DNA of 34,139 bases from an uncultured Ruminococcus sp. (GTDB lineage Bacteria > Bacillota > Clostridia > Oscillospirales > Ruminococcaceae), in assembly GCF_902762735.1 (NCBI RefSeq), contig NZ_CACWPP010000028.1:1-34139 (forward strand). The letters run 5' to 3'. This document shows positions 3,092 to 29,556 of the stretch, one piece after another; position 1 is the stretch's first letter, and each line of letters opens with the position of its first letter. The position numbers and the translations under genes were made by a program. The notes under the pieces were generated by a model. It had not been told where the DNA came from, did not search any database, and saw only the letters and a program-made list of their open reading frames with translations.

Positions 3092-3141
3092 ACAACATGG
3101 GGCGGGATCATTTCTCTGCCCCGGACAGAACGGAGGCTTTG

Positions 3142-3727: not shown

Positions 3728-3734
3728 AAAACGC

Positions 3735-3769
3735 AAGTGGGGGCATCCTGTTTTGTCCCCACTTTTTTT
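3735..3769 (+). terminator. Intrinsic terminator after DUF960
   Basis: The stem AAGTGGGG at 3735-3742 pairs with CCCCACTT at 3757-3764, followed by a run of T. It ends the amidoligase cassette just before the integrase gene. Confidence 0.85.
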
Positions 3770-3820
3770 GAAAAAGCATGACGAACAATTCGTTATATTT
3801 TTACGAAAGGGGCAATGCTT

Positions 3821-4963
3821 ATGCCATTTACAGGTCATGTCAGAAAACGTGCAACTAAGTCCGGTATTACTACCTACCAAATTATTGTTGAGGAGGAAAG
3901 TGATGCCGCTACCGGCAAGCGTAAGCGTTTTTACAAAACCATCAAAGGCAGCAAAAAGGATGCAGAGCGTGCCATGCGCAGCTTTATTTCCGAGATCGAG
4001 AGCCGGACATTTACGAAGGACAGCAAGATCAAGGTCAAGGATTTCATGCACCAGTGGCTTGATCTTTATGTGAAAGGGCAGCTTTCTCCCACGACGGTGC
4101 AGCATTATATCGACCAGACGGAGAAGTATATCATCCCGGAATTTGGTGATCTGTACTTGCAGCAATTGAGAAATATCGACATCCAGAAATGGGTATTTTC
4201 CTTGCAGAAGCAGTCACCACTGACGGGAAAGCCGCTGTCTCCCAAGACCATAAAAAACATTGTGCTGAACCTCTCTGCTGCCATGAAGAAAGCGGTCATG
4301 CTGGAGCTCATCCCAAAGAACCCTTGCGATAATCTGACGCTGCCGAAGCTGCAACGATTTGAACCGGATGTGTACAGCATGGAGGAGGTGGAGCAGCTTT
4401 TGAACTGCGCAAAGGGTACTGATCTCTATCTGCCGATGATGATCGAGATCTGTCTTGGACTGCGCCGGGGCGAATTGCTGGCACTTCGTTGGCATCATGT
4501 CGATTTTGAAGAGGGCGTGCTGTCGGTCGAAGAGAATCTGGTGACGGTCGTCAACGAGATGATCACCAAGACGCCTAAGACGAAAAGCGGCAAAAGAAGT
4601 ATCCAGATCCCGAACACGCTGTTGCAGCTTTTGAAGAATACTTATGGGGAGCGCCACGCACGGGAGAATGATTATATCATCTGCCAGCCGGACGGGACAC
4701 CCTATAAGAGCGATTCATTTTCTCTAAAATTCAGGCGCTTTTTGAAAGCGAACGGCCTCAAGCATATTCGTCTGCACGACCTGCGGCACATCAATGCGAC
4801 CATTATGTTGACTTCTGGTATTTCTCCCAAAGTTGCACAGGAGCGTTTAGGTCATGCAAACTATCAGATCACGATGGACATTTATAGCCATGTGCTGCAG
4901 AAGGTCGAGAAGGAGGCGGCGAGCAAGATCGATGCGGCGCTGTTTGACAAGACGGTTGGTTAA
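3821..4963 (+). CDS. Tyrosine recombinase / integrase
   Basis: A 380-residue phage-type integrase. The N-terminal part has an arm-binding domain, followed by a SAM-like core-binding domain (about residues 60-170) and a catalytic domain. The catalytic set is present: Arg215 in GLRRGEL, H319-x-x-R322 in HDLRH, the GHA motif and Tyr355 in DIYSHV. The start at 3821 is preferred over the ATG at 3815, because AAAGGGG at 3806-3812 is only 2 bases from 3815 but 8 from 3821. It should excise and integrate the surrounding element. No excisionase gene is seen next to it. An attachment site for it cannot be assigned with certainty (see the finding on the displaced tRNA-fMet fragment). Confidence 0.92.
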   Translation: MPFTGHVRKRATKSGITTYQIIVEEESDAATGKRKRFYKTIKGSKKDAERAMRSFISEIESRTFTKDSKIKVKDFMHQWLDLYVKGQLSPTTVQHYIDQTEKYIIPEFGDLYLQQLRNIDIQKWVFSLQKQSPLTGKPLSPKTIKNIVLNLSAAMKKAVMLELIPKNPCDNLTLPKLQRFEPDVYSMEEVEQLLNCAKGTDLYLPMMIEICLGLRRGELLALRWHHVDFEEGVLSVEENLVTVVNEMITKTPKTKSGKRSIQIPNTLLQLLKNTYGERHARENDYIICQPDGTPYKSDSFSLKFRRFLKANGLKHIRLHDLRHINATIMLTSGISPKVAQERLGHANYQITMDIYSHVLQKVEKEAASKIDAALFDKTVG

Positions 4964-5834: not shown

Positions 5835-6677
5835 AGGTAGAGAGCAACCCCGCCAGTCCGAACGCCAAAAGTACATAGACTGCATTTCCTGTCAGATAAG
5901 GCTGCGCCTCCGCCAAAAGCTGTGTGCAGCTCTTATCCGTGAACGGCAATGTCTTGTGCAGATAATTCGGGGATAGGTAGGGTACCACCGCCTCGTCCTC
6001 CTCCCCATCGCTGCACACATAGTCAATGTCCTTGATCACACCATCCTCTGCTTGAAGGTACAGCCCTGGAAACTCTGGATAATAGGACATCGTCAGGCCG
6101 CCGCCGTTCAGGATCTGCATCATCATCCAGTAAAGGAACTCATTGGCGAGTGCCTTGCTGCATCTTCTCTGAAACACCTTGAAATACGGCAGCAAAAGTC
6201 CCTTCACGATCTGCTCCGCCGGGATGACCGCTGTATCCTGAAGCCCCAAACCACAGCAATAGCGCACCTTGATAAACCGTCTCTCCTGTCCTCCTGTCAC
6301 CGTGGTGAAAGCCTCTGCCTGCTCCAGCTTCATCGTGCCGATCTCCTTGCGGCGATCGCTGGACTCGATGCTGTAGCTCACGCCGCTTGGCTGCATATCA
6401 AAGCAGCGGGGATTCTCCCGCTTCTCAGCCGTTGCTTTGGCAACCTGTGCCTGGAGCTGAATGATCTGATGACACATTGCGTTCTTCTCATAATTCGCTT
6501 GTACCAACAAATCGTGATTCACCTGGTTCTGATAGGATAGCTGATGAATCTGATCAATCAGAACATCTGTTATTGAAAGAGAAAAGGCAGTAGCTTGCAA
6601 GCGGTAAGATTCGGCGTACTCAGGCAGATACGTTGCTTCTCGAAAGTCCGCTTTTCCTGAAAAGGCAAAAGCTTTTC
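5827..6677 (-). pseudogene. 5'-truncated hypothetical gene
   Basis: The open frame runs from a stop at 6678 down to 5827 without a proper start. Coding character continues upstream of the first usable TTG (6600), with residues such as YLPEYAESYRLQ, so the start has been lost near 6660. What remains is about 280 residues: a helical N-terminal stretch rich in Gln, then a domain containing RRFIKVRYCCGLGLQDTAVI and NEFLYWMMMQILNGGG. I do not recognise it. Downstream it overlaps the start of another truncated gene, so the pair is the relic of an operon on this strand. Confidence 0.55.
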
Positions 6678-6683
6678 ACCGGA

Positions 6684-7310
6684 ATGAGCCAATATGTTTC
6701 GTTACAATCCCGCATCAACACTGAACTGGGAGTCTTTGGAAGTCAACAGTACAAGCATGGCTCTCGATTTCCTCAACCTGTTAAGAATTACAGACAGCTC
6801 ATCTGTGCTATGCTTTCTTTCCTGTTTAAGGGGAATGATGCAAAAATTGGAATACAGGAAGAAATAGCTCACCTATATAATATTGTTGCCGGGAAAATCA
6901 GTCTACAATATCTTCGAGCTGTCTATCTGCAAATGAAGCCTGATAACATAGATTATTGGAAATTGCACAACTATTTTTCGGTGCTTGATAAAGCCGAAAC
7001 ATTTGACGGTCATATCCTGATGACACATGAGCGTTTCCTATATTTAAGCTCCAAATCTCGGTTATTAGAAGACCGAAAAGTAATTATTGACGAGGATATT
7101 CTCGGCACTGCGTTTGCTACAGTGAGTGTAGACATAGCTGATATGAAACGTGCTTTGAAAATGGACTGTTTTGATAAGGACGAAAAGGAACGTATGTCGG
7201 AAATTCTAAATGGTGGGACTTATCAAAGATACCATACTCGTGCTGGAGTATACTCGATGGAGGCTGGTATTCCAGACCAGCTTGAAGAAATACAGACTAA
7301 TATCCTTGAC
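6684..7310 (+). pseudogene. Gene fragment with Walker B-like motif
   Basis: About 209 residues in an open frame that then runs, out of context, into methyltransferase sequence. The piece contains LEDRKVIIDEDILG, which resembles the DExx stretch of a P-loop ATPase or helicase, and a helical N-terminal half. No Walker A is seen, so it is an internal fragment. Bases are more AT-rich than the following methyltransferase part. The joint at about 7310 is a recombination scar. Confidence 0.45.
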
Positions 7311-7967
7311 CTACCTCATGGAAGCGGACGGCGTTCCGATGAAGATGCCGCATGTCTGGGACGGCATCAAGCCGAAGGACATGATCGGCATCCCGTGGAT
7401 GCTGGCGTTTGCCCTTCGTGCGGCGGCTGGTATCTGCGCAGCGACATCATCTGGAACAAGATCAACTGCCTGCCGGAGAGCGTCCGTGACCGTCCGACCA
7501 AGTCCTACGAACACATCTTTCTGTTGTCGAGGTCGCCCCGCTACTTCTTTGATGCGGATGCGATCAAGGAGCCGATCACGGAGGAGAGCCGGAAACGGTA
7601 TCAGCGTGGTCGCAGCGAGGGAAGCAAGTACGGTGTCTTTTCCGGCGACCAGAGCATCAACGGAAGCGACTACGGAGAAAGGATGCGTGGGCAGAAGCTC
7701 CGCAATAAGCGGGACACCTGGCATATCAGCACGAACAGCTACCGGATGGACGGGCATTTCGCCATGTTTCCGGAGAAGCTGGTCGAGCCGTGTATCCTTG
7801 CGGGATCGCAGGAGGGTGGCATCGTCCTCGATCCGTTCTTCGGCAGCGGCACAACCAGCGCTGTCGCCAAGCGGCTCGGTCGCCGTTTCATCGGCATCGA
7901 CCTCAATCCAGACTACTGCCGGATGGCGCAGCAGCGGATCGACGCCGTTTCAGATACACGAAAGTGA
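7311..7967 (+). pseudogene. Frameshifted DNA methyltransferase fragment
   Basis: The C-terminal part of a beta-class DNA N4/N6 methyltransferase. Motifs are KPKDMIGIPWMLAFALRAA in one frame, and then GWYLRSDIIWNK, RDRPTKSYEHIFLLS, DPFFGSGTT and FIGIDLNPDYC in the next. The frame changes at about 7424, where one base appears missing from a run of G and C. The N-terminal part with the DPPY-like catalytic motif is absent. The gene is therefore doubly broken. A nuclease fragment follows at 8009, so this looks like the wreck of a restriction-modification locus. Confidence 0.8.
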
Positions 7968-8008
7968 ACGCACTATGCAACCACTCTGCATGACAAGAAC
8001 CTCGAAAA

Positions 8009-8350
8009 ATGCCGAATCTGCGTGAGTGCATCCGCACAGAAATATACTATGATGATATTCGCGCTGAGGAATGGACGCCGTCCTATGCAGGCAGTTCACT
8101 AAGGATTGACTTTCTGATTCCGGAAATCAAAGCCGTAATCGAGGTCAAGAAAACACGTCCGTCCATGACAGATAAATCGCTCAGCGAGGAGCTGATCATT
8201 GATATTGAGAAGTATCAGGTGCATCCGACCTGCAAGAAAATCTATTGTTTTGTATACGATCCTGATATGATCTTGCGCAATCCTGCGGCAATTAAGAATG
8301 ATGTTGAGAAAATGCATGAGGGACTTGTGATAGCGTTTATTAAAGCATGA
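8009..8350 (+). CDS. PD-(D/E)XK nuclease, probably truncated
   Basis: A 113-residue protein with the restriction-like nuclease core: Asp34 in RIDFL, then Glu45-x-Lys47 in VIEVKKTR, and later IIDIEKYQVHP and YCFVYDP. This matches the C-terminal domain of DpnII/MboI-like nuclease proteins, which are normally much longer, so this is probably a surviving domain. It follows the methyltransferase wreck by 41 bases. The start lacks a good ribosome binding site, and an in-frame stop lies at 7991, so expression is doubtful. Confidence 0.65.
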   Translation: MPNLRECIRTEIYYDDIRAEEWTPSYAGSSLRIDFLIPEIKAVIEVKKTRPSMTDKSLSEELIIDIEKYQVHPTCKKIYCFVYDPDMILRNPAAIKNDVEKMHEGLVIAFIKA

Positions 8351-10373: not shown

Positions 10374-11735
10374 ATGCTGCTTGATTTCAGGTTTAAGAAT
10401 TTTAAGTCCTTTAAGGATGAAGCTGATTTTTTTATGACAGCTGCGCCCAAGCAGCAGGGCTTAAATTATAGTGTTACTGAAATTGTTCCAAAAGTTAGAG
10501 GTAGAAAAAAAACAATTAAAGCATTATGCTCATCTGTAATATATGGTGCAAATGCCGCAGGTAAAACTAATATTATATCCGCAATGGATGTTTTTCGTTC
10601 TATCTTTTTGCGCGGAAATATTCGCAACATGGAAGAATTATCTCCAATTAATATTGCATCCTCCCGACTTGATCTCGTTCCAAATAAAAATGAAGCAGCT
10701 AGCGTTCCGGTTGAATTCTATATTAAGTTTTATGAAAATGACCTTTTGATAGAGTATGCTCTCCATATTGCGCTAGGCGCTTTTCTTGGAAAGGAATCAG
10801 AACGATACGTTTCTTATGAGAAACTATGTGTTAATCAAATCTGTATTTTTGAAAGAACAGGGCAGGGCAATTCAAAGGACACCATAGTATCTATTGGAGA
10901 ATTGGATGTTATAGGTGCTTATATTCCAAAAGACGATAATGGAGAAAAATTAGAAACAAGCATAGGGTTTATCAATGCTACACTTGATGAAGAAGAGCTG
11001 TTTATTTGTAACGGATTTAAAAATCAAGTATCTAAGGAATTCTATTCTCTTGTATATAGATGGTTTAGTACAAAGTTTATTGTAATTCTTCGTGCGGATT
11101 CTATGACATATACTCCACGTTTCTTGGATCTCGAGAAGAAGGGTGGTGCGATTGACTATACTTTGAATGAGGCTGCAAAGTTGTTTGGTATCAATTCGAA
11201 TGATTTGATTTATGAAATTGATAAAGATAATGGACACTCTATTCTTTGTTCCGTTGTAGAAGGAAAGCATCTGAAAAGCCCTGTACTCATTCCATCGGAA
11301 TTTTTTGAGTCTTATGGTACCATTCGGTTTGTAAATATTTTCCCGATTATTCTGACATGTCTAATGTCGGGTGGAACACTTGTGGTGGATGAGTTCGATG
11401 CGTCGTTGCATCCAATGGCATTAATGAACATTGTGAATTTGTTCCATAATGATGACGTTAACATATGCCATGCACAGTTGATTTTTGATACCCATAACCC
11501 TATCTTCCTAAACTCTAATCTTTTTAGAAGAGACGAGATTAAATTTGTTGAACGCGATGATGAAACTCACAATAGTACTCTATATTCCCTTGCTGATTTT
11601 AAGACAGCAGATCATACTCGCACACGGCTTCACTCTGATTATATGAAAAATTATTTTATTAATCAATATGGAGCCATTAATGATATTGATTTTACACCTG
11701 TAGTCGAAAATATTATGAAAAACTTTAGATCATAA
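10374..11735 (+). CDS. AAA family ATPase (AbiLi/RloA-like)
   Basis: A 453-residue ABC/SMC-type ATPase of the kind found in defence systems. Seen: an N-terminal FRFKNFKSFKDEADF, Walker A GANAAGKT at residues 58-65, Walker B LVVDEFDASLHP near residues 336-347, and a switch-like IFDTHNPIFL. There is no fused nuclease domain. The following gene encodes an RloB-family protein, so the pair matches the composition of AbiL (AbiLi plus AbiLii) and RloAB-like pairs. In that family the ATPase is thought to sense infection and the partner to act as a TOPRIM-like effector. The pair is visibly AT-richer than its surroundings, a sign of recent transfer. It has its own consensus promoter. Confidence 0.85.
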   Translation: MLLDFRFKNFKSFKDEADFFMTAAPKQQGLNYSVTEIVPKVRGRKKTIKALCSSVIYGANAAGKTNIISAMDVFRSIFLRGNIRNMEELSPINIASSRLDLVPNKNEAASVPVEFYIKFYENDLLIEYALHIALGAFLGKESERYVSYEKLCVNQICIFERTGQGNSKDTIVSIGELDVIGAYIPKDDNGEKLETSIGFINATLDEEELFICNGFKNQVSKEFYSLVYRWFSTKFIVILRADSMTYTPRFLDLEKKGGAIDYTLNEAAKLFGINSNDLIYEIDKDNGHSILCSVVEGKHLKSPVLIPSEFFESYGTIRFVNIFPIILTCLMSGGTLVVDEFDASLHPMALMNIVNLFHNDDVNICHAQLIFDTHNPIFLNSNLFRRDEIKFVERDDETHNSTLYSLADFKTADHTRTRLHSDYMKNYFINQYGAINDIDFTPVVENIMKNFRS

Positions 11736-11759
11736 GAGGCTACAGAGGCAGTATGGGGG

Positions 11760-12437
11760 ATGATAATTCGGATGCGAAAAACAAATAAACAATACTTCTT
11801 TAGTGTGGAAGGCGAAACAGAGCGAATGTATCTTGAATGGCTTCAAAAACAGATTAATTCTCATTCGTCTTCCAAACACAAAGTCGACATAAAAGTTAAA
11901 GTGGCTAAAGATCCAATGCGCTTTGTGAAGTCACTTCAAATCTTAGGCAAAACGGAAGTTTGGCATTTGTTTGATTATGAGGGAAGTATGGCTTCAAATC
12001 AGGATGCTCAACATTTGTTTGAATCCACTTTGGAAAAAATGAAAAAAGCGGAGAAGCAAAAGAATATTAGTTATAAATTGGGGTATTGCAATCTTTCATT
12101 TGAACTTTGGATGATTTTGCATAAGAAGGATTGTAGTAGGAGTTTTAATAGGGTTGATCAGTATCTTCCCATAATGAATAGTACTTATCAATTGAGCTGC
12201 ACACGGTTAAGTGATTACAAAGAGAAAGATGTATTTCAAAAGTGTTTGGGACAGTTATCTTTGAACGATGTAAATGATGCAATTAAACGTGCAGATAGAA
12301 TGATTTGTATTCTGGAAGAAAATAGTGTGAAATTGTCGAAATATAATGGATATCAGTTTTATACCAAAAATCCATCACTTTCTATTCACGAGCCAATGAA
12401 AAAAATATTGAGCGACTGCGGATTGCGAAAAATTTGA
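11760..12437 (+). CDS. RloB family protein (AbiLii-like)
   Basis: A 225-residue protein with RloB features: an N-terminal SVEGETERMYLEWLQ, the TOPRIM-like acidic motif, then VWHLFDYEGS and a C-terminal LSFELWMILH stretch. RloB proteins are partners of AAA ATPases in restriction-linked or abortive loci and are thought to cut nucleic acid. The start may be 11760 or the ATG at 11772; neither has an ideal ribosome binding site (GGGGG at 11755 favours the second). It lies 24 bases after the ATPase stop and shares its AT-rich base use. Residual function is likely, since both genes are full length. Confidence 0.8.
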   Translation: MIIRMRKTNKQYFFSVEGETERMYLEWLQKQINSHSSSKHKVDIKVKVAKDPMRFVKSLQILGKTEVWHLFDYEGSMASNQDAQHLFESTLEKMKKAEKQKNISYKLGYCNLSFELWMILHKKDCSRSFNRVDQYLPIMNSTYQLSCTRLSDYKEKDVFQKCLGQLSLNDVNDAIKRADRMICILEENSVKLSKYNGYQFYTKNPSLSIHEPMKKILSDCGLRKI

Positions 12438-12605
12438 ACACTTGAGGACATTAAGTGTACGAAGTTCCTTTCGTAGACTGAAGCTGAAATGGTTGAGTAA
12501 TATTTTAAGGGATGTTTTGACACCGTCGTCACCACGTCGGCGGATAGGGTTGCAGAGTAGCGTTTTAGGTCTATATTCCTAAGAAAATGAGAATTCGTTT
12601 GAGTT

Positions 12606-12644
12606 GCTCATAACCCGAAGGTCGTAGACCCATCCTTGCGAAAC
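12606..12644 (+). other. attL-like site: tRNA-fMet piece plus phage-type arm
   Basis: Positions 12606-12625, GCTCATAACCCGAAGGTCGT, equal the anticodon loop, 3' anticodon stem and variable loop of initiator tRNA-fMet. The bases before 12606 do not match the tRNA, so this is only an internal piece. After GGTCGT the sequence leaves the tRNA, and CGAAAC follows at 12639-12644. The inverse, GTTTCG, occurs at the matching distance at 20203. Read together with 20203-20252 it looks like the left junction of the serine-recombinase element. The rest of 12438-12927 shows no gene, only terminators. Confidence 0.75.
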
Positions 12645-12699
12645 AACGTAAGCGAAAGATAACGAAACATTGACCGGGCGGTACAGCTGAAAACGACAG

Positions 12700-12744
12700 C
12701 ACAGCCTGCCTTACAGGGGAACTTGTAAGGCAGGCTGTGTTTTT
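12700..12744 (+). terminator. Strong intrinsic terminator
   Basis: A 15-bp perfect stem, CACAGCCTGCCTTAC at 12700-12714 paired with GTAAGGCAGGCTGTG at 12725-12739, followed by TTTTT. Confidence 0.85.
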
Positions 12745-12828
12745 GTCAAAAGGGATCTGTTCTCTTTCTGTGTCACACCGGGCATGATGCCGGAAATGTG
12801 CCATTTGGATCAGAAGCCGAAAGCAACA

Positions 12829-12860
12829 AGCCCTCCGCAAGATCGCTCTTGCGGAGGGCT
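12829..12860 (-). terminator. Terminator after the mannanase
   Basis: A 13-bp perfect stem, AGCCCTCCGCAAG at 12829-12841 paired with CTTGCGGAGGGCT at 12848-12860. It lies downstream of the minus-strand mannanase gene and is most likely its terminator. Confidence 0.75.
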
Positions 12861-12927
12861 TTGATCTACCCCACCGTTATGATGGATACACCTCATCAAT
12901 TACGCTCTGGATATGCGGATAGTGAGC

Positions 12928-14595
12928 TCAGGCATTTATCAGCTTACGCTTCATCATGCAGAGGTCGAATACATCGAGTCTGTCATCCTGATACAGGTCA
13001 GCCGCCTTCCAGTCCGCCAGATGTGTATCCGGTACGGCAAGGAGCCATTTTTGCAGCAGTACGATGTCAGAAACATCGAAAACGCCGTCTTTATTTACAT
13101 CACCGGCAACGGTCTCCGGCGTATATGCAGCTTTCAGGCTTTCCCAGTCGGGCAGCTCGTCCAGCGTGATGACGTACTCGCTCAGATAGTCCTTTTTCAG
13201 GATCTCAGCCTCGGTATGTTCATCTGAGAACCGACCGTTCGCTGTAATGAAACCGCCGTTCCAGGTGGTGAAGCAAGCCCATTTTGCCCCGGAAGCCATG
13301 ACGTTGTCAATGTCAAAAATAGTGCCGTTCTCGGTCAGCGCAATGATCTTCTTCCCGCCGGAATAGTCCAGTATTTCAGAAAATTTCGCTGCATGAGCGG
13401 TATAGGAATGCTTGTCGACGTAAATATCCTCGCCGATGATGTCAACGTACTCATCACCAGGATACCAGTCAGCAGACTGACCGTTCCACACCCATATCAG
13501 GTTGTGGCAGCCATAGACATTTGTGAGCTGATCGTAGAGATATTTGTAGAGTGCCTTGTACGGCTCAGCGCCCTTTGCGCCCCACCAGAACCAGCCGCCG
13601 GATGCCTCGTGGAGCGGCCTCCAGAGGATCGGCACGCCCGCCTCCTGCAAGCGGAGGAGCTGCTGTGCGATGCCGGCAATATCCGCATCAATGAGCGCCT
13701 TCCCCTCCGGATCGCTGCCGTCCATGACCTTTGCGATGTCAAAGTCGGTATTCCGTGTGTAGAAACCGCCCCACCACCGTGGAGAGCCGTTTTCCTCGGT
13801 ACCCTCTTTCAGGTAAGCGGTCGGGGCGTTCCAGTGCCAGCAGAAAGTCACGATCCCGCCGGCATTGTGGAACTCGATCGCACGCTCGACAGCGTCAGAG
13901 CCGGTACCCAGTGCCACACGGGAGGGCGTAAGATCCATCATGTCAAGGCCAAGGATGGCAGGTGTTTTCCCGGTCACATCCTTGATCGCACGGAATTCAT
14001 CACTGTCCAGTCCCCGGTCTGCGAATTGTCCCGCAAGCACCTGCTCGCCGTATCTGTCGCAGAGGTAGGAAAACAGCACTCTTGTCTCGACATTCGCATC
14101 CGGGTCGATCAGGGTATCGTCCACCGCATAGGCTGACTGTGGTATCGCCTCTGCCGCCTCGATCTTGATGCAGTCGACTGCGATCCACCCCCATGACTTT
14201 GTGATCGCGACCTGATGTGTCCCGGCAGTCAGCAGAACGCTTCGCATCAGTGAATCGGAATAAGTATCGGCGGTGCTGTCGAAGGTCCCAGCAAAGTCAC
14301 CGTCGATCACGATGTTGTTGGTCTTGACGCCGCCGAACCCCTTGGAGTTGATGACGATGTCATAGGTCCCATCCGTCGGGATATCCACCGTAAACGTCAG
14401 CGAATCTGTGTCCTCCGCAAAGTTGCCTGCGGCTTTTCCGCCGGACCGCCCTGCTTCCTCGATGATGCTCATGGTGCCCGACATTGCGGCATCCTCCGCT
14501 TCATATACGCCGATCGTTTCCGCAGAGCCGGTGACAGGTACACATTGTAACGCCATGCTGACCGCCGCCGCGGCTGCAATGATCTGTTGCTTCAT
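12928..14595 (-). CDS. Secreted GH26 beta-mannanase with CBM35 and dockerin
   Basis: A 555-residue exported enzyme. A signal peptide covers about residues 1-25, a CBM35-like domain (VYEAEDAAMSG, then WIAVDCIKIE) residues 28-150, the GH26 barrel about 170-470 and a type I dockerin the last 65. The predicted acid/base is Glu330 in RPLHEASGGW and the nucleophile Glu422 in ALTENGTI. The dockerin has two calcium repeats, DVNKDGVFDVSD and then LYQDDRLDVFDL. It should hydrolyse beta-mannan on the cell-surface cellulosome, bound through a cohesin. AAGGAGG precedes the ATG. The divergent AraC gene is 127 bases away and the promoters overlap, so the two are probably co-regulated. It may be cargo of the mobile element described here. 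Confidence 0.92.
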   Translation of the reverse strand: MKQQIIAAAAAVSMALQCVPVTGSAETIGVYEAEDAAMSGTMSIIEEAGRSGGKAAGNFAEDTDSLTFTVDIPTDGTYDIVINSKGFGGVKTNNIVIDGDFAGTFDSTADTYSDSLMRSVLLTAGTHQVAITKSWGWIAVDCIKIEAAEAIPQSAYAVDDTLIDPDANVETRVLFSYLCDRYGEQVLAGQFADRGLDSDEFRAIKDVTGKTPAILGLDMMDLTPSRVALGTGSDAVERAIEFHNAGGIVTFCWHWNAPTAYLKEGTEENGSPRWWGGFYTRNTDFDIAKVMDGSDPEGKALIDADIAGIAQQLLRLQEAGVPILWRPLHEASGGWFWWGAKGAEPYKALYKYLYDQLTNVYGCHNLIWVWNGQSADWYPGDEYVDIIGEDIYVDKHSYTAHAAKFSEILDYSGGKKIIALTENGTIFDIDNVMASGAKWACFTTWNGGFITANGRFSDEHTEAEILKKDYLSEYVITLDELPDWESLKAAYTPETVAGDVNKDGVFDVSDIVLLQKWLLAVPDTHLADWKAADLYQDDRLDVFDLCMMKRKLINA

Positions 14596-14616
14596 ACGCT
14601 TCCTCCTTTTTGACAG

Positions 14617-14645
14617 TTGACATTTGGACTGCTCTGTGCTATTAT
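14617..14645 (+). promoter_or_regulatory. AraC gene promoter
   Basis: TTGACA at 14617-14622 and TATTAT at 14640-14645, 17-base spacer, leading to the AraC start at 14723. A second TTGACA lies at 14610-14615. Its -10 shares 2 bases with the -10 of the opposing mannanase promoter. Confidence 0.7.
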
Positions 14646-14672
14646 TATACTATCAAATACTACTTTTTACAA
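14644..14672 (-). promoter_or_regulatory. Mannanase promoter
   Basis: On the minus strand, TTGTAA (complement of 14667-14672) and TATAAT (complement of 14644-14649) are separated by 17 bases. It leads toward the mannanase start at 14595. Its -35 overlaps the first 13-bp repeat, where a regulator would act directly. Confidence 0.75.
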
Positions 14673-14711
14673 GTATATTTCTATCTGAATCTGGTACGAT
14701 ACTACTTTTTA
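14657..14711. promoter_or_regulatory. Pair of 13-bp direct repeats, candidate operator
   Basis: ATACTACTTTTTA occurs at 14657-14669 and again at 14699-14711, 42 bases apart, which is four helical turns. AraC proteins bind directly repeated half-sites, so this is the natural operator for the adjacent regulator. One copy overlaps the mannanase -35, the other the ribosome binding site of the AraC gene. Confidence 0.65.
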
Positions 14712-14722
14712 GGAGGGCGTCA

Positions 14723-15973
14723 ATGTCTCACAAAGCGTTCCGTGAACAGAAGCAGCACAGCACACTGCTCGTTCCCTATAGCTTCCTTTATGGTGTGATG
14801 CCGGAATACTATCCCTCGATCGGGATCCACTGTCACCCCGAATTTGAGCTGTACGTTTTTGCAGAAGGACAGTGCCGATTCCAGACGGGCGACCGCACTT
14901 TTACAGCAAAAGCAGGTGACCTGGTCTTGGTGCAGCCGGATGTGCTCCATGGCGCCGAAACGATCCATGACGAGCGGGTCGCCTACCACATCGCGCTGTT
15001 CGACCCTCGTCTCGTGACAGGCGGCATCGAAGACCGGGCGTATCAGGAGATATGGCTGCCGCTCATCTCCGGGAAGATGGTGCTCGATCCGCTCATCACA
15101 CCGGCGCATCCCTATTATGAGGAGCTGAAACGATGTGCAGACCATGTGATCTCCTGTGTGCAGTTCCCCACCTTGCAGAATGAGCTTTTGCTTCGTGCTT
15201 CACTGATGGAGCTGTTCTATCTGCTCCTTGACAGCGGCAGCATCCACGAAAAAGGCAGGCATAGCGCCGATGCAGAGGGGATTCTTGCGCCGGCCATCGA
15301 CTATATCCAGGAGCATTATACGCAACCGCTCACCGTCGAGATGCTCGCACAGACCGTCCATCTGAGCAAAAGCTATTTCATGTGTGTGTTCCGCAAGACC
15401 TTCGGGATGCCGGCGCTTGCGTATGTGCATCATGTCCGGATCGAGGCGGTCTGTGAACTGCTGCAGCACAGCACGGAAAGCATCACTGAGATCGCTGTGA
15501 GATGTGGTTACCCAAGTCTTGCCAATTTCAACAGACATTTTCAGAAAGAAGTGGGGATGACACCCGGCGAATACCGAAGATCCACAGGCAGTGCTGCCGG
15601 GAGCAGCGGTGAGCGTGTTTCTCAAAAGGACAGCATCTACGACATTTCCCTGCATAAAGCCTATCATGAGCTGGTAGAGAAGGCCTTGCGCCGCGGCCAT
15701 ACCCGACAGGAGGTGGATGCCGTCATCTGCTGGTTCACCGGATACACACCGGAGCAGATCGCGCAGCAGCTTGCGGCTGCGGTCACCTATCAGGCGTTTC
15801 TGGAACATGCGCCGCAGATCCATCCGGATGCGGCGAGCATCACAGGAATCATTCACGGTATGCGTGTCGAGAAGATCGAGGAACCCCTCATGCAGACCAT
15901 CTGCCGGCTCGAGAAGTTGGTCGATGATATGGTGAGGGGGAAGTCTCACGATAGGGAGGGGGAGCAAACGTGA
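14723..15973 (+). CDS. AraC family regulator fused to DUF2200
   Basis: A 416-residue transcription regulator. The N-terminal half is a cupin sensor (HCHPEFELYVFAEG, later GDLVLVQPDVLHGAE). Two helix-turn-helix units follow in the middle (about residues 190-290, ending FNRHFQKEVGMTPGEYRR). The C-terminal 105 residues match DUF2200: KAYHELVEKALRRGHTRQEV, VICWFTGYTPEQIAQQL and EEPLMQTICRLEKLVDDM. DUF2200 normally stands alone, so this is a fusion. AGGAGGG precedes the ATG at 14723. Divergent to the mannanase gene, it likely controls it in response to a sugar. Confidence 0.88.
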   Translation: MSHKAFREQKQHSTLLVPYSFLYGVMPEYYPSIGIHCHPEFELYVFAEGQCRFQTGDRTFTAKAGDLVLVQPDVLHGAETIHDERVAYHIALFDPRLVTGGIEDRAYQEIWLPLISGKMVLDPLITPAHPYYEELKRCADHVISCVQFPTLQNELLLRASLMELFYLLLDSGSIHEKGRHSADAEGILAPAIDYIQEHYTQPLTVEMLAQTVHLSKSYFMCVFRKTFGMPALAYVHHVRIEAVCELLQHSTESITEIAVRCGYPSLANFNRHFQKEVGMTPGEYRRSTGSAAGSSGERVSQKDSIYDISLHKAYHELVEKALRRGHTRQEVDAVICWFTGYTPEQIAQQLAAAVTYQAFLEHAPQIHPDAASITGIIHGMRVEKIEEPLMQTICRLEKLVDDMVRGKSHDREGEQT

Positions 15974-16011
15974 TCCCCGCAATAGAGAGGATCGCATAGC
16001 GAATGACCGCA

Positions 16012-16052
16012 AGCCCTCAGAAATGCTCTGTCAGCGTTTCTGAGGGCTTTTT
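16012..16052 (+). terminator. Intrinsic terminator after the AraC gene
   Basis: AGCCCTCAGAAATGC at 16012-16026 pairs with GCGTTTCTGAGGGCT at 16034-16048, then TTTTCTTTT. Confidence 0.85.
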
Positions 16053-16330
16053 CTTTTCAGTAGTTCATTTTTGGCACGGAGCCCCTGTGCCATTTTTTGT
16101 TTTTTCAGAGGAAAAGAGCACTACGCCAAGCAGTTTGGCAAACTGTACAAATTATCCGCTTGATTTTTGTGCATTCCGATGCTGTCGACACGCATTGCGA
16201 AAAAGCGCCGATATATCAACGTTTTATCGACATTCACCGAAAATGAACAGGAAAAGGTACCATTCTCAAAAATCTAATCAAAAACACACTATTATCATGA
16301 AGGGGGTCAGAAGGCTCCACTGGAAGGGGT

Positions 16331-16399
16331 CAAGGGGATGTGCCCCTTGCCCGCGGAGCGCGAACTGCCTACCGTGTAGGCTAGTGAGATACACCTACA
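16331..16399 (+). other. Predicted origin of transfer (oriT)
   Basis: The region just before the MobV relaxase gene holds a 7-bp hairpin, CAAGGGG at 16331-16337 paired with CCCCTTG at 16343-16349. It also has an inverted repeat TGTAGG at 16375-16380 with CCTACA at 16394-16399, around CTAGTGAGATACA. MobV nick sites usually follow such a repeat and carry TAGTG, so the nick is probably near 16382-16386. The rest of 16053-16445 shows no gene. Confidence 0.6.
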
Positions 16400-16445
16400 A
16401 AGGTGCCGCCCCCTCGAGAACCATCGACAGAAAGGAGATGAGCAA

Positions 16446-17990
16446 ATGAGTACGCAGGTAGTCCGCGTCGAGAAGTTTAGCAGAGGGTCGCTGCAGAACA
16501 TCGGGAACGAGCTGGAACGTACCCCCGGGATCGATCTGCGGAATCCTGACATTGACAGCAGCCTGACACACCTGAACCCGGATATGCACAAACCCACTGA
16601 CGATCCGAACTGGTTTACACGGTTCAGTAATATTCTGGAAGCAACCGGAGCAACATTCAATAATAAGAAAGGTGTTTGCGCATTTGAGGGTATGATCATC
16701 ACGTCTGACACAGCATTTTTTGAGGGGCTTGGCTGGAAGCGAGGAGAACCTGCGCCGGAGGCGGTGGAGCAGTTTTTTGCGGATGCCTACAAATGGGCGA
16801 TCGAAAAGATCGGTTACAAGGGGACAGATGTCAATATTCTCGGAGCAAAGGTGCATTACGATGAGAAAACGCCGCACTTGCAGATCGACTATGTTCCCAT
16901 TGTGGAGACTGTTAAAGTTAAAGTGTACGAAAAGGATGAAAATGGAAAAGTCAAGAGGAATGAGAACGGCAGCCCCATTCAGGCGCGGGATGATCATGGC
17001 AAGATCATTTACGAAACCAAGAAACAGCCGACGGTCAACCGAACAGAATTCTGGCAGCAGCGTGGGGGCAAAAACAGCTATTCTTTGATGCAGGATGATT
17101 TCCACGCGAAAATTGGTGTAAAGTACGACCTTGGGCGCGGAGAAAAGGGCAGTAAAGCCAAGCACAAGACCAATCACCAGAAACGTGCCGAGGATGAACA
17201 ACTGATGAAAGAAAACGAATCAAAACTGAAACAGCAGAATATAGAGATCGAAGAAAAGAATAGGTTGATCACAGAATCTGAGAGACAAGCGGAAGCACTC
17301 GCCGCAGAGATCGCGGAGCAGACAACTGCGCAGGAGAAGCTTGCAGGCTCCGTACAGGCTTTGCAGGAGCAGCATGACGATCTGACACGGAACATTGAGA
17401 ACGACACCAGGAACGCTGAGAAAGCCCGCAGAGAATGTGCCAGGGCAGAAGCAGAACGGGATGCCCGTGTCAGCACAATTGCTGCTGAAAACATTCCGCC
17501 CCGTCCCGCATTGCCGGAAAAGAAGGATCTTGCTTCGTGGTCATATTATCATCCGTTATCAGATTACAAGCGCGGCTTTAGCAGCGGCAGGAAGGAGCAG
17601 CAAGAAGCATATCATGCGGAAGTGGTCGTTCCCTACGAAGATGCAGTACGGGCACAGAAAGTATGGGACGAGCAATATGCACCTATTGTTGCACAAGCAA
17701 AAGAGATAGCGAATTTGAGGGAAGAATTGAAAGAGAATCGGCTTTTGCTGAATACAAAAGATACATATATCGATCATGCAAATGCTAAAATTCATGGATT
17801 GAAAATCGAGAATGGTTATCTGATACACGAATTGACAGGGGATATCCCCGAAGAAGAAAACCCCATGAATGAAACAATGCAGAATATGATGCTCGGTCTG
17901 GATGCAGAGACACAGGAACGGCGTGACAGAATTGTAGAAGAGATCGAGAAAACAGAAAGGGAAGGGATATATTATGGATATGAGATTTAA
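16446..17990 (+). CDS. MobV/Pre family relaxase
   Basis: A 514-residue relaxase. It should nick oriT and lead the strand during mobilization by a helper conjugation system. The N-terminal domain (about 1-200) holds the metal motif H137-x-D139-E140-x-x-P-H144. Family members usually have HxDExTPHxH, but here the last His is Gln146. Residues 250-380 form a long coiled coil rich in Glu, Gln and Lys. AGAAAGGAG precedes the ATG. The next gene overlaps its end by 17 bases. The layout, relaxase followed by a large serine recombinase, matches Tn4451-type mobilizable elements (TnpZ, TnpX). Confidence 0.88.
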   Translation: MSTQVVRVEKFSRGSLQNIGNELERTPGIDLRNPDIDSSLTHLNPDMHKPTDDPNWFTRFSNILEATGATFNNKKGVCAFEGMIITSDTAFFEGLGWKRGEPAPEAVEQFFADAYKWAIEKIGYKGTDVNILGAKVHYDEKTPHLQIDYVPIVETVKVKVYEKDENGKVKRNENGSPIQARDDHGKIIYETKKQPTVNRTEFWQQRGGKNSYSLMQDDFHAKIGVKYDLGRGEKGSKAKHKTNHQKRAEDEQLMKENESKLKQQNIEIEEKNRLITESERQAEALAAEIAEQTTAQEKLAGSVQALQEQHDDLTRNIENDTRNAEKARRECARAEAERDARVSTIAAENIPPRPALPEKKDLASWSYYHPLSDYKRGFSSGRKEQQEAYHAEVVVPYEDAVRAQKVWDEQYAPIVAQAKEIANLREELKENRLLLNTKDTYIDHANAKIHGLKIENGYLIHELTGDIPEEENPMNETMQNMMLGLDAETQERRDRIVEEIEKTEREGIYYGYEI

Positions 17991-18312
17991 GGGCTCCACT
18001 TGCGTACTGGCTGCAGTGACAGAGCAGGAAAAGCGAAGAGAGAATGACATTCAGCTGACCGCTGAATTGTCTCTTGACAACTGGGATCTGCAGTCTGTTA
18101 CAGATGAGATCTATGCATGGTATGATGTGATCCTTGCGGAGGATGCTGTACTGGCAAGCACGATCAAACGCTTTGAACCTCTGGAAACAGTGTGCAAAGG
18201 TGTTGTCAAGTGGTCGGTCAGAATCACACTTCGTGCGGCAAAGTCTGGTGCCGGAAGATATGGCATGTCCGCAGCAGAGGCATATAGGAGCCTTAGAAGT
18301 ATGATGGAATAA
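17974..18312 (+). CDS. Hypothetical protein of the mobilization module
   Basis: A 112-residue protein of unrecognised family, overlapping the relaxase end by 17 bases. It starts MDMRFKGSTCVLAAVTEQEK and ends AAEAYRSLRSMME, with a helical middle, DEIYAWYDVILAEDAV. The tight coupling suggests an accessory role for mobilization. Confidence 0.6.
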   Translation: MDMRFKGSTCVLAAVTEQEKRRENDIQLTAELSLDNWDLQSVTDEIYAWYDVILAEDAVLASTIKRFEPLETVCKGVVKWSVRITLRAAKSGAGRYGMSAAEAYRSLRSMME

Positions 18313-18333
18313 GGCAGAGAGGAGCAGACAGCT

Positions 18334-18510
18334 ATGAAGGAAACAAACCTTGAAATTACATATATCAGTGAATCGCAGACAAAAATTTGTATAGGAGATA
18401 TCTGCTTCATGGTGGAATCTGCATTCGGTGAGATCCCGATGGACGAGATCATGACAGACTATGTTGCAGAACAGATCAAGGAACACGATACAGCTGACCA
18501 CGCCGCATAA
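18334..18510 (+). CDS. Small acidic hypothetical protein
   Basis: A 58-residue acidic protein starting MKETNLEITYISESQTKICI, with AGAGAGGAG upstream. It lies 21 bases after the previous gene. The family is unknown. Confidence 0.6.
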   Translation: MKETNLEITYISESQTKICIGDICFMVESAFGEIPMDEIMTDYVAEQIKEHDTADHAA

Positions 18511-18527
18511 AAACCGATCCAACTGCA

Positions 18528-18556
18528 TTGACAATACAGAAGGATCATGCTATAAT
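18528..18556 (+). promoter_or_regulatory. Consensus promoter of the serine recombinase
   Basis: TTGACA at 18528-18533, TATAAT at 18551-18556, 17-base spacer. It is 40 bases before the recombinase start. Confidence 0.9.
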
Positions 18557-18596
18557 AAAAATGTAGTCAGCTGTACTGCTCAGAAAGGACGAAACT

Positions 18597-20216
18597 ATGA
18601 GCTTTGAGCAGAACAGATACATGGCTGGTCTATATTGCAGACTGAGCCGGGATGATGACCGCAGCGGGGAGAGCGTTTCCATCGAGACACAGAAGAAGAT
18701 CCTCTCGGACTATTGCACGGCGCATGGATATGGCATCTACGACTTCTATTGCGACGACGGCTGGAGCGGCACGAATTATGACCGCCCGGAGTTCAAACGC
18801 ATGATGGCGGACATGAAAAGTGGTACCATTAACATGATCGTGGTAAAAGATCTGAGCAGGCTGGGCAGAAACTACATCGAGACGGGGAATCTGATCGAGA
18901 AGGTGTTCCCGGAGACCGGCATCCGCTTCATCGCCATCGGGGATGATGTGGATACGGACAAAGAGAACATGGACTTGGATCTGATGCTCCCGATGAAGAA
19001 TCTGTTCAATGACTTCTTCCCCTTGGATGTGTCCCGCAAGACCCGTCAGGCGTTCAAGACCAAGGCGGAGCACGGGGAGTTCATCGGCACATTTGCCCCG
19101 TATGGCTATCGGAGATCGGCGGCGGACAAGCATGTCCTCGAACCCGATCCGGAGACTGCGCCGATCGTTTTGGAGATCTTTGAGATGGCTGCCTATCAGG
19201 GATACGGCTACAACAAGATGGCGAAGGAGCTGTGCAGGAGAAAGGTCCTCACGCCCTCTGCCTACCGTGCCGGACTTGAAGGAAAGCCATACGAAAAAGA
19301 CCCATACGACTGGAATTTGCTGTCAGTACGGGTCATTCTGGAGAATCAGGTCTACCTCGGTCACATGGTCAACGGCAAACGCAGAACGGTGTCCATCAAG
19401 AGCAAGCGCGTGATCCGCGTTCCCGAAGAAAAGTGGATCGTTGTGAAGCATACGCACGAACCGCTTGTCAGCGAACAGCTCTGGGAGGATGCCCATGCAC
19501 GGCTTGGCGCACGCAAGAGAACCGGCAAAACAGGACAGGTGAATATGTTCGCAGGGCTTGTCAAATGCGACTGCTGCGGCAAGGCGCTGACACTTGCAAA
19601 TTCCAGCGGACACAAGAATTATTTCGCCTGCAACACCTACAAGAGAAAAGGCAAGGAAGCCTGCACATTCCACTACCTCCGCTACGATCTTCTGTACCAG
19701 GTCGTGCTGGCAGATCTCCGGTCGAAGCTGAAGACTGTGCATCGTGACGAGGACGCATTTGTGAGAAAGGTCATGAAAAAGCTGGGAACAGTGGACGACC
19801 GGAAACAGATGCAGATGCGCCGGGAGATGGACGATGTCAGCAAGCGGTTGAGCAAGCTGGATGCGAAGTTCGACAAGCTGTATGATGACCGTCTGGAGGG
19901 CATCATTTCGGACAAAAAGTTCCGGGAAATGGCGGAAAAGTGCGAGACAGAGCAGAATCAGCTGGAGGCGAGATCCGCTCAGCTGCAGCAACAGCTCGGT
20001 GAGCAGTCGGAGGCGGAGCAGAATGTCTCCCGGTTTCTGGAGACCATCCGGGAATATGCGGAGATCCGTGAGCTGGATGCGGAGCTTTTGAACCGGATGA
20101 TCGACAAGATCGTGGTGAGCGACCGCGTCCCGGACGAAAACGGCGGCTTTTCTCAGAAGATCAAGATCTATTACCGCTTTATTGGTGACTTTGGTGAGGA
20201 TCGTTTCGTTAAGTGA
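18597..20216 (+). CDS. Large serine recombinase (TnpX-like)
   Basis: A 539-residue site-specific recombinase. The N-terminal resolvase domain holds the nucleophile Ser17 (YCRLSRDD) and the VVKDLSRLGRN motif near residues 82-92. A recombinase domain follows. A zinc ribbon (CDCCGKALTLANSSGHK to CNTYKRKGKEAC) lies around residues 323-360. A long coiled coil and a C-terminal DUF4368-like end complete it. AGAAAGGAC precedes the ATG. Its 3' end overlaps a presumed attachment arm: GTTTCG at 20203-20208 lies in the gene, and the tRNA-fMet piece begins 8 bases after the stop. It should integrate and excise the element and is the likely actor at 12606-12644 and 20203-20252. Confidence 0.92.
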   Translation: MSFEQNRYMAGLYCRLSRDDDRSGESVSIETQKKILSDYCTAHGYGIYDFYCDDGWSGTNYDRPEFKRMMADMKSGTINMIVVKDLSRLGRNYIETGNLIEKVFPETGIRFIAIGDDVDTDKENMDLDLMLPMKNLFNDFFPLDVSRKTRQAFKTKAEHGEFIGTFAPYGYRRSAADKHVLEPDPETAPIVLEIFEMAAYQGYGYNKMAKELCRRKVLTPSAYRAGLEGKPYEKDPYDWNLLSVRVILENQVYLGHMVNGKRRTVSIKSKRVIRVPEEKWIVVKHTHEPLVSEQLWEDAHARLGARKRTGKTGQVNMFAGLVKCDCCGKALTLANSSGHKNYFACNTYKRKGKEACTFHYLRYDLLYQVVLADLRSKLKTVHRDEDAFVRKVMKKLGTVDDRKQMQMRREMDDVSKRLSKLDAKFDKLYDDRLEGIISDKKFREMAEKCETEQNQLEARSAQLQQQLGEQSEAEQNVSRFLETIREYAEIRELDAELLNRMIDKIVVSDRVPDENGGFSQKIKIYYRFIGDFGEDRFVK

Positions 20217-20252
20217 AGTTTAGGGTCGTCGGTTCAAATCCGGCTCCCGCAA
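20203..20252 (+). other. attR-like site: phage-type arm plus tRNA-fMet 3' end
   Basis: GGTCGT at 20224-20229 followed by the T-arm and acceptor end (through CCGGCTCCCGCAA at 20252) equals the 3' end of initiator tRNA-fMet. The 5' half is absent. GTTTCG at 20203-20208 lies 15 bases before the core; its inverse lies 13 bases after the other core, at 12639. The pseudo-symmetry centres on the GT in GGTCGT, as expected for a serine recombinase. Confidence 0.78.
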
Positions 20253-20262
20253 TCCTGAATTA

Positions 20263-20295
20263 AGCCCATGTTTAGCGATAAACATGGGCTTTGAT
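20263..20295 (+). terminator. Intrinsic terminator downstream of the tRNA piece
   Basis: AGCCCATGTTTA at 20263-20274 pairs with TAAACATGGGCT at 20279-20290. It is probably the old tRNA terminator. The rest of 20296-20584 shows no gene, only a weak hairpin near 20366-20385. Confidence 0.75.
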
Positions 20296-20584
20296 TTTTG
20301 CCGTGCAACTTGAAAATAAACCGGCATACCCTTACTGTACCCTTATTGGATTCTGAAGTGACGCAGCTTCGGGGGTTGCGAAGGCTTTTTTATGTGATCT
20401 TGTGTGATTTTATTGTTGCACGAAGTAACGGACAGCGATTCGAACGTAAACCGTGTAATTGGGTGAATTGAAACATCGCAGCATATTGTACAAGGTTGTG
20501 CCGTAGGCAACACCTTAGCAACGACTATTTGGGTTATGTTTGGACGGTTGGTTTTACACTATAAAACCGAAAGGACAGATACAA

Positions 20585-20815
20585 ATGATCGATGCGATGT
20601 TGGGTTACAGACAGGGCGAGATACACTCCGCCGAGTTCTTTGACGAGTGGGGCAAGCTCTGTATCCCCTTTGAAGATTCGCTGAGTGAGGAGCAGATCGT
20701 TGTTTATCGCAGGATACTGGACTGCGTGAGCGAGACTGCCTCTGCTGAGATGAGAGCTACCTACAAGGTCGGCTTCAAGGACGGGGCTAATATGATGCAG
20801 GAGGTTCAGGACTGA
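20585..20815 (+). CDS. DUF6809-like protein
   Basis: A 76-residue acidic helical protein, MIDAMLGYRQGEIHSAEFF at the start and YKVGFKDGANMMQEV at the end. It shares the layout of the DUF6809 protein at 273-539, in particular the C-terminal VGFxxGAxxM stretch. AAAGGACAG lies upstream of the ATG at 20585. An intrinsic terminator follows. Function unknown. Confidence 0.7.
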   Translation: MIDAMLGYRQGEIHSAEFFDEWGKLCIPFEDSLSEEQIVVYRRILDCVSETASAEMRATYKVGFKDGANMMQEVQD

Positions 20816-20835
20816 TATGATCACAGCATAAGGAA

Positions 20836-20884
20836 AGGGCTATGTCCTCCGTGACCGTATACGGAAGGCATAGCCCTGTTTTTT
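20836..20884 (+). terminator. Intrinsic terminator
   Basis: AGGGCTATG at 20836-20844 pairs with CATAGCCCT at 20869-20877, with an extra inner stem CTCCGT...ACGGAAG, followed by a long T-run. Confidence 0.85.
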
Positions 20885-20951
20885 TCTTTTCAGATGCCTA
20901 TTCAGTTTTCTTCTGCGAAGCTTTATTTTTACGATCCTGCCGATAGATCCC

Positions 20952-28857: not shown

Positions 28858-29007
28858 TCATACTGTATTCCTAAGATAGTGGTCTGTGATATTACCATAA
28901 GACTGTAGTCTATTGGAACACCTGTGATCCGTTCCATACAAGTCTATATCGGAATTATGGCGCGCGCCACAATGACGGCATAACCTTTTGGAACTGAATA
29001 ACTCACA

Positions 29008-29051
29008 AAGACCTGAGATCTGCTCACACAAGCACTTCTCAGGTCTTTTCT
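29008..29051 (+). terminator. Intrinsic terminator of the ABC operon
   Basis: AAGACCTGAGA at 29008-29018 pairs with TCTCAGGTCTT at 29037-29047, followed by TTCTTTTC. No gene is seen between 28858 and 29124. Confidence 0.8.
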
Positions 29052-29124
29052 TTTCAGGCGGTTAGTTTCCGCTCCGCAAGCTCGGACGGCTCTGAGGGGT
29101 ATTTCCGTTCGTCTGAGGGGGCTG

Positions 29125-29556
29125 TCAAGCAGAGGTAGGCTCGGCAATGCCGTGAGTGGCTTCATATTCCCTGACACGGCGGTAAAATGTATTAGCTGAC
29201 AAGCCCATTCTCCGCATAAAGTCCCTGCCTGTGATGTTCTTCGCTTTCCATTCCCCATAGAGCTGCCCGAACCTCGTCCAGTCGATCTCGATAGGCTTCC
29301 GCTCCGTATACTTGCCCTGAGCCTTAGCGATCTCAATTGCCGGCACGACCGTGAGCATTGGAATCAATAGCAAGGCTCTTGTGATCGTCGCCGTTTTCTG
29401 AATCTTTTCTTTGGTTGTCGATCCAAGCTCCACGACTCTGTCCTGTACGTCCTGCTCGTAGAAAACAACCAGACCGACAGGACCGTTTGCAATGCCGACC
29501 ACGCAGATGAGCAGCAGCCAAAATGCCATCACCAGTCCTTCTAAAAGTAGCGTCAT
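29125..29556 (-). CDS. Membrane segment fused to a resolvase tail
   Basis: A 143-residue protein with two unlike halves. Residues 1-73 have two hydrophobic segments (AFWLLLICVVGIANGPVGLV and ALLLIPMLTVVP) joined by VQDRVVELGSTTKEKI, the start of a membrane protein. Residues 74-143 match the C-terminal end of a serine resolvase: IAKAQGKYTERKPIEIDW and then an HTH ending TFYRRVREYE. No catalytic Ser domain is present. AAAGGAG precedes the ATG. It is either a recombination chimera or a membrane-tethered DNA-binding protein. Confidence 0.7.
   Translation of the reverse strand: MTLLLEGLVMAFWLLLICVVGIANGPVGLVVFYEQDVQDRVVELGSTTKEKIQKTATITRALLLIPMLTVVPAIEIAKAQGKYTERKPIEIDWTRFGQLYGEWKAKNITGRDFMRRMGLSANTFYRRVREYEATHGIAEPTSA

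Follow-up and report, generated by a model that had tools for sequence, protein, structure and literature searches.

How did two consecutive parts of a tRNA-fMet come to stand at opposite ends of a group of genes in an uncultured Ruminococcus, and does that group form a mobile element that carries a mannanase gene? The DNA in question (the window) is a whole contig, C28, of 34,139 b, from a genome (G000) of 4.06 Mb in 242 contigs that is 97% complete and 3% contaminated. As an earlier note on this DNA had claimed, the window holds the tRNA pieces GCTCATAACCCGAAGGTCGT at 12606-12625 and GGTCGTCGGTTCAAATCCGGCTCCCGCAA at 20224-20252. We conclude that 12624-20227 is probably an integrative mobilizable element (IME) of the TnpX/TndX type, which has a GH26 mannanase and an AraC-type regulator as cargo and sits in a leftover 3′ fragment of tRNA-fMet. 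The tRNAs concerned are labeled tRNA-Met(cat) by ARAGORN, and we take them to be initiators (fMet) from our own reading of their sequences. The proposed borders are the following.

12606..12623, plus strand: left part of the tRNA-fMet 3′ fragment (anticodon loop to variable loop), ending in the core GGTC at 12620-12623
12624..12644, plus strand: left arm P′, 15 nt and then CGAAAC, with a near-identical arm on contig C83 of the same genome
12624..20227, no strand: proposed IME, 7,604 bp with the shared GGTC counted once, delimited by the split tRNA piece and the arms
20203..20223, plus strand: right arm P, GTTTCG and then 15 nt, overlapping the end of the recombinase gene
20224..20252, plus strand: GGTC core (20224-20227) together with the tRNA-fMet 3′ part (T arm and acceptor strand)
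20262..20291, plus strand: hairpin with a T run directly after the tRNA fragment, found as a self-complementary match and resembling hairpins behind the fMet genes of relatives

Fused at GGTC, the two pieces give 43 nt, GCTCATAACCCGAAGGTCGTCGGTTCAAATCCGGCTCCCGCAA, which recur without a break or a changed letter on the viral contig L178, within a tRNA-Met(cat) gene as called by ARAGORN. Each piece is single-copy in the 4.06-Mb genome, the left one when its 18-nt part 12607-12624 is sought with 0 mismatches and the right one when the whole piece is sought with up to 3. Chance is excluded as the source of the two pieces.

Inverted arms accompany the core. A distance of 15 nt separates GGTC from GTTTCG (20203-20208) on the right and from CGAAAC (12639-12644) on the left, and the recombinase gene (18597-20216) overlaps the right arm, in agreement with the earlier statement that this gene ends at the site. 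The earlier note had also read the arms as a serine-recombinase attP centered on GT. The arms at 15 nt from GGTC stand and recur elsewhere, at both ends of an element in the genome G016 and at the recombinase end of a locus in G281; a center at GT is plausible, and the att sites are deduced from the sequence.

Recurrence behind related recombinases

The recombinase has the domains of TnpX/TndX-type large serine recombinases. Its best solved relative by sequence is TnpX (2mhc, E 5.2e-30), and it is 38.6% identical to an annotated TndX over 97%. A protein search of 297 family genomes found at least three relatives outside the window's own genome at E 1e-150 (four including its own), and at E 1e-145 an order-level search of 394 genomes matched its own genome and no other; scoring was confined to the top few candidates of each genome, which makes both counts lower bounds.

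The closest recombinase found is 59% identical and belongs to G281. Its gene ends just before GTTTCG-N15-GGTC, and a tRNA 3′ half follows, presumably of tRNA-Asn to judge by its sequence. Among 396 family genomes, the pattern GTTTCG-N15-GGTC-N3-GGTTC has two matches, the window and G281, both of which lie right behind the recombinase; the control, read backwards, has 1 match.

Behind a more distant recombinase in G016 (L208 8089-9726; 42% identical) come GTCGCT-N15-GGTC and a tRNA 3′ half. The right GGTC, at C2:481796, lies 70 nt past the end of the recombinase open reading frame (ORF; end at L208 9726, site at 9796). The left end is GGTC-N15-AGCGAC at C2:469143, giving an element of 12.65 kb between the halves of a split gene that we take to be tRNA-Thr-like. 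Of 30 symmetric positions, 20 agree between the arms, including 11 in succession, and the left arm is the best match (18/22) to the reversed right arm in 96 kb on both strands, the right arm itself excepted, and stands exactly behind GGTC. The 5′ half of this tRNA starts 12.8 kb upstream, at 468991, and its acceptor sequence GCTGATA is complementary to the right-hand TATCAGC; about 108 nt separate the recognizable end of the 5′ half from the core piece. Since GTCGCT and AGCGAC also stand at N15, a different recombinase appears to use the same spacing with a different hexamer. Thus, the same architecture is present with both ends at one other locus (G016) and at the recombinase end of a second (G281). 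In view of the 43-mer, the arm spacing and the architecture in G281 and G016, 12624-20227 is most likely a TnpX/TndX-type element.

An intact tRNA-Thr(cgt) called by ARAGORN (L213 17210-17285; G016:C2:469210-469285) lies within the G016 element, 63 nt from its left end; the element may carry a replacement tRNA.

At nine recombinase loci, we set a position near the stop codon and searched the following 1.5 kb, on the strand of the gene, for the T-arm pattern. A tRNA 3′ half beginning at GGTC is present at 3 of the 9 (the window, G281 and G016a). Behind another related recombinase (L117), two alike tRNA 3′ ends, again presumably tRNA-Asn by our reading, lie about 330 nt apart, at ~4124 and ~4458, which suggests serial insertion at one tRNA.

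In a tree of 13 recombinases, the window's enzyme is placed close to the pair of G281 and L117, though this placement is not strongly supported, and the G016 enzyme groups with that of G013, whose locus shows no T-arm pattern within 1.5 kb. Given this tree, we do not claim that the tRNA-associated recombinases form one clade. A scan of viral contigs with GTTTCG-N15-GGTC-N3-GGTTCNA gave 18 stretches; we dropped it as support because several of these, judged by eye, are tRNAs whose own anticodon arm fits the pattern. Neither the recombinase peptide patterns nor the left-flank pattern has a matching stretch in viral contigs, and in the viral contig L180, which has a 21-mer match, the likeness does not extend past these 21 nt at the limit applied. 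When phages and plasmids were searched at the DNA level, the result was either no match or a single short R. albus match.

The target and its left flank

The earlier note took a whole tRNA-fMet gene to be the target. The sequence does not support that claim in this form: what is found of the gene is its 3′ part alone, beginning at the anticodon loop, with no adjoining 5′ half. Neither the window nor the joined flanks contain a tRNA according to ARAGORN, and no tRNA 5′ half is recognizable left of 12606.

Similar fragments occur in relatives. fMet 3′ fragments that start at CTCATAACC and lack a 5′ half are present in at least 5 of 24 genus relatives (G008, G013, G017, G021 and G010), part of the candidate places having been read. 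The stretches around the fragments of G008, G017 and G010 contain a tyrosine integrase gene. In G008, such a gene lies between an intact fMet and the fragment, which are ~12.4 kb apart. The corresponding distance in G010 is ~27.7 kb, and here a tyrosine integrase and a serine recombinase that is 35.6% identical to the window's lie in between. The G010 serine recombinase (L203 2226-5019; G010:C24) is ~1.1 kb from the intact tRNA-fMet gene.

The fMet scars that were read run unbroken from the anticodon loop to the 3′ end. The window piece starts where the relatives' fragments start, plus one matching G, and this shared start suggests that the serine element entered such a scar, so that its insertion site would be a tRNA-fMet scar. 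A candidate maker of the scar is present in the contig.

3815..4963, plus strand: tyrosine integrase (Pfam), putatively the maker of the older fMet scar

Behind the tRNA fragment, at 20327-20345, are direct repeats TACCCTTA-CTG-TACCCTTA, which are reminiscent of tyrosine-integrase arm sites.

It is very improbable that the tRNA fragments delimit nothing but a tyrosine-integrase element in which the serine recombinase is a passenger, even though the contig has two tyrosine integrases, the genus shows repeated fMet scars and L117 has a first tRNA piece that resembles such a scar. The scars that were read are unbroken, whereas in the window, as in G281 and G016, the cut lies at GGTC and comes right after the recombinase gene. 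The window also differs from Islander-type islands, in that it has no intact tRNA and a serine enzyme lies within the borders.

Alternatively, the element could have inserted into a whole second tRNA-fMet gene whose 5′ half has since decayed. We regard this as unlikely, but several observations fit it. Positions 12538-12561 match the fMet 5′ end at 16 of 24 positions without gaps, a weak match that 1 of 500 dinucleotide shuffles reached; three other versions of the test (other allele, 31 nt) were reached by 2, 1 and 14 of 500. The G016 locus does have a tRNA 5′ half upstream, though ~108 nt from the core. Moreover, CCA is encoded neither in the window fragment nor in the intact fMet of the same genome, so the fragment may be a native second copy. 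On the other hand, the 5′-end match is not significant in a copy of the left flank on contig C83 (134 to 339 of 500 shuffles), the score of a gapped local alignment to the fMet 5′ end was reached in 125 of 1000 simple shuffles, and the window piece begins where the displaced fMet fragments of relatives begin.

The C83 copy concerns the left flank.

12524..12605, plus strand: left flank with a diverged copy on contig C83 of the same genome (G000:C83), possibly the end of an older element

G000:C83:9561-9912 resembles window positions 12524-12873 at 85% identity, across the junction. The two agree at 71 of 96 positions left of the core and at 136 of 141 from the core to 12760. The change point in identity is best placed at 12613, with 12631 nearly equal and a near-optimal range of 12607 to 12636. 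Such a shift is as expected for related element ends in two diverged copies of one target, and C83 holds a recombinase remnant 2-3 kb from the copied unit. We considered an RNA as the explanation of the left unit and rejected it: 0 of 7 Rfam matches (E <= 5) reach the gathering score. The folding z-scores are -2.15 for 12524-12640 and -0.97 for the C83 copy, and a pairing across the core was dropped because it has a different register in the two copies. The stretch 12630-12760 folds strongly (z -6.39), chiefly through a terminator-like hairpin.

Several results count against a serine element inserted in an fMet scar. The symmetry of the window arms is modest, with 14 of 30 positions matching and a longest run of 6; when GGTC sites of the window were paired at random, 74 of 11,556 pairs (0.6%) had a run of at least 6, and in a comparison with the reversed right arm the left arm agrees at 12 of 22 positions, which is outside the six best places of the window. 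The single intact fMet seen in the window's own genome (C1:1829-1904) differs from the window pieces over the fragment part, where 30 of 45 tRNA places of the genome and surroundings were read and a further copy may be among the unread or unassembled ones. No left element end was recognized in G281, and a search of that genome for tRNA-Asn with TGTTAANC-N2-6-GGTC gave no match. In L117, one of the nine loci, the first of the tRNA pieces begins in the anticodon loop and not at GGTC, and is perhaps a tyrosine-integrase scar. Five of the nine loci have no T-arm pattern in 1.5 kb, although the stretch for one of them (G016b) began in the gene and covered ~0.84 kb beyond its end, and all four plasmid-borne relatives lack the pattern in 288-300 nt. 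The scar in G010 is not surely of the tyrosine type, given the serine recombinase in the same stretch. Because the 85%-identical copy spans the junction, the C83 unit and the left region of the window could both stem from a single old duplication, in which case the left border would be weaker. Finally, the earlier note had proposed a search for the empty site in related genomes. None was found: 12440-12640 matched only the window's own genome and its C83 copy among 29 genus genomes, with one genome per species available, an absence that is not firm with 10 candidates scored per genome.

On the right-hand side, 20257-20483 has no match in the genus search. The right-hand operon is colinear with G000:C64 and G024:C44, but this colinearity stops at 20918-20924, outside the proposed element, and ARAGORN finds no tRNA in the stretches taken from these two contigs.

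Other features of the contig lie outside the element. A DUF6809 gene (20498-20911) has a conserved leader of ~120 nt with many repeats in the genome and genus, at up to 95% identity. A stretch of ~450 nt at 28901-29347 is repeated in many genus genomes, near copies of a hairpin type that also occurs at 16011-16049. At both contig ends, a glutamine-amidotransferase-like gene accompanies a tyrosine integrase (1879-4963 and 31589-34075) in opposite orientation; the amidotransferases are 49% identical and the integrases 25%, and the left end also has an amidoligase-like gene. An AAA ATPase and RloB-like pair (6633-8350 and 10374-12437) has AbiLi and AbiLii as its best PADLOC matches. With a methylase and a DpnII-MboI-like nuclease nearby, this region is probably a defense cluster beside the element.

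Genes between the borders and the cargo question

The following features lie between the borders.

12928..14595, minus strand: GH26 (mannanase family), CBM35 and type I dockerin (Pfam)
14624..15973, plus strand: AraC-type regulator with DUF2200 (Pfam), proposed cargo
16011..16049, no strand: terminator-like hairpin of a kind repeated across the genus
16070..16445, plus strand: stretch before the relaxase gene, candidate place of an oriT, with a 10-nt inverted repeat at 16328-16352
16446..17990, plus strand: MobV/Mob_Pre relaxase (Pfam Mob_Pre, E 5e-16, above the cut-off)
17974..18312, plus strand: ORF of 112 aa with no family in Pfam or NCBIfam
18334..18510, plus strand: ORF of 58 aa before the recombinase gene, with no family match
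18597..20216, plus strand: large serine recombinase with Resolvase, Recombinase, Zn ribbon and DUF4368 domains (Pfam)

The region thus has its own recombinase together with a MobV-like relaxase, the genes by which we recognized an IME. Against the NCBIfam MobV model, the relaxase scores 87.2 bits, under the cut-off of 100. No conjugation gene is among the seven ORFs scanned between the borders, other overlapping ORFs being outside the scan. The ORF at 16003-16449, over the candidate oriT stretch, has no family match in Pfam or NCBIfam. The 58-aa ORF was considered as a TnpW; Pfam and NCBIfam do not support this. Of the 7.6-kb element described in the earlier note, the borders, mannanase, AraC gene, relaxase and recombinase are in place, while its oriT comes down to the inverted repeat at 16328-16352.

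Is the mannanase cargo? It lies within the borders, as the earlier note had it, and from these borders we infer that it may move. GH26 relatives are frequent among genus loci. The nearest, in G023, is 64% identical at the amino acid level, and the 20 kb taken of its locus contain nothing related to the AraC, relaxase or recombinase proteins. In a DNA search of the 29 genus genomes, the AraC gene has short weak matches only (10 candidates per genome scored, no genome-wide protein search made). These comparisons neither contradict nor prove cargo status.

One could therefore ask whether the mobile part runs from the relaxase to the recombinase only, with the GH26 and AraC genes as flank and the left tRNA piece as part of an unrelated, repeated noncoding unit (12524-12873, C83). 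We consider this improbable. It would agree with the uninterrupted paralogue of the left unit at C83, with the GH26 homologues in the genus, including the G023 locus, and with the genus-type terminator between the AraC and relaxase genes. However, the left border would then have to show, by coincidence, a piece of the same tRNA, an identical core and an arm at precisely the mirrored spacing. In addition, C83 itself has its recombinase remnant nearby, and both ends are unambiguous in G016.

For the favored TnpX/TndX-type element, we propose the following mechanism. The serine recombinase would join a GGTC-centered attP to the junction of variable loop and T arm in tRNA-derived DNA, with crossover presumably at the GT within GGTC. 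The target would be a leftover piece of tRNA-fMet, reaching from the anticodon loop to the 3′ end, such as remains after the action of tyrosine integrases, and insertion of the element would split it. After excision, the circle would be transferred by a conjugative helper with the aid of the MobV-like relaxase, and the GH26-CBM35-dockerin mannanase and its AraC neighbor would ride along as cargo.

Comparison with known systems

tRNA genes are a classical target of tyrosine integrases. The clostridial elements Tn4451/Tn4453 and Tn5397 (TnpX/TndX) have recombinases of the same large serine family as the window's, and small size and a recombinase at one end are features of the Tn4451/Tn5397 type. 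Unlike them, the window element has a dockerin-bearing mannanase as its cargo. Tn4451 likewise has a MobV relaxase, but it integrates with low specificity (PMC5704250), whereas the window element appears to cut tRNA-derived DNA at GGTC.

According to a 2014 paper, only tyrosine integrases were known to target tRNA genes (PMC4383910). Among other integrase literature, Integrase-On-Demand (PMC12884075) was consulted. We recognized no report of serine recombinases in tRNA genes in the literature searched, which mostly excluded subscription journals and so is no proof of absence. The nearest precedent found is in the ssrA islands of Dehalococcoides, where a CcrB-like recombinase acts at the T-loop of tmRNA (PMC3146451). 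As in the window, a serine recombinase (DsiB) belongs to a putative mobilizable island in the T-loop part of a tRNA-like gene, and its gene overlaps the border (PMC3146451). Those islands occupy the tmRNA 3′ end with a 20-bp direct repeat, occur in tandem and have a second small recombinase, DsiA (PMC3146451). By contrast, the window has an insertion at the junction of variable loop and T stem, a short shared core, one recombinase found and a split target, which corresponds to part of the tRNA-Met gene in L178 and not to ssrA.

Two further systems share some of these properties. In the tyrosine-integrase islands found by Islander, a tRNA fragment also marks the element end, but these islands restore the tRNA gene (PMC4383910), whereas in the window no restored tRNA is seen and the enzyme class is another. 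IME_Rho_tet of gut bacteria similarly combines a relaxase with a serine recombinase, terminal inverted repeats and gene-interrupting insertion; its matched sites are often small MAFF2 ORFs (116/256), and the word tRNA is absent from the main text of the paper (PMC12904643).

A broader reading, which we offer tentatively and rate as somewhat short of an even chance, is that GGTC-N3-GGTTC is a general attB of a group of TnpX/TndX-like recombinases in several tRNA genes (presumably fMet, Asn and Thr). Since the elements do not restore the tRNA gene, they would persist mainly in tRNA scars of tyrosine integrases or in tRNA genes that are already broken. If so, serine-type elements live on the waste of tyrosine-type elements. 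If serine recombinases read the shared T-arm block, this would explain how related enzymes hit several tRNAs. Such recombinases would add candidate integrases for genome engineering, and split tRNA pieces would become a search signal for such elements. The locus also suggests a route by which a dockerin-bearing mannanase may spread among gut bacteria.

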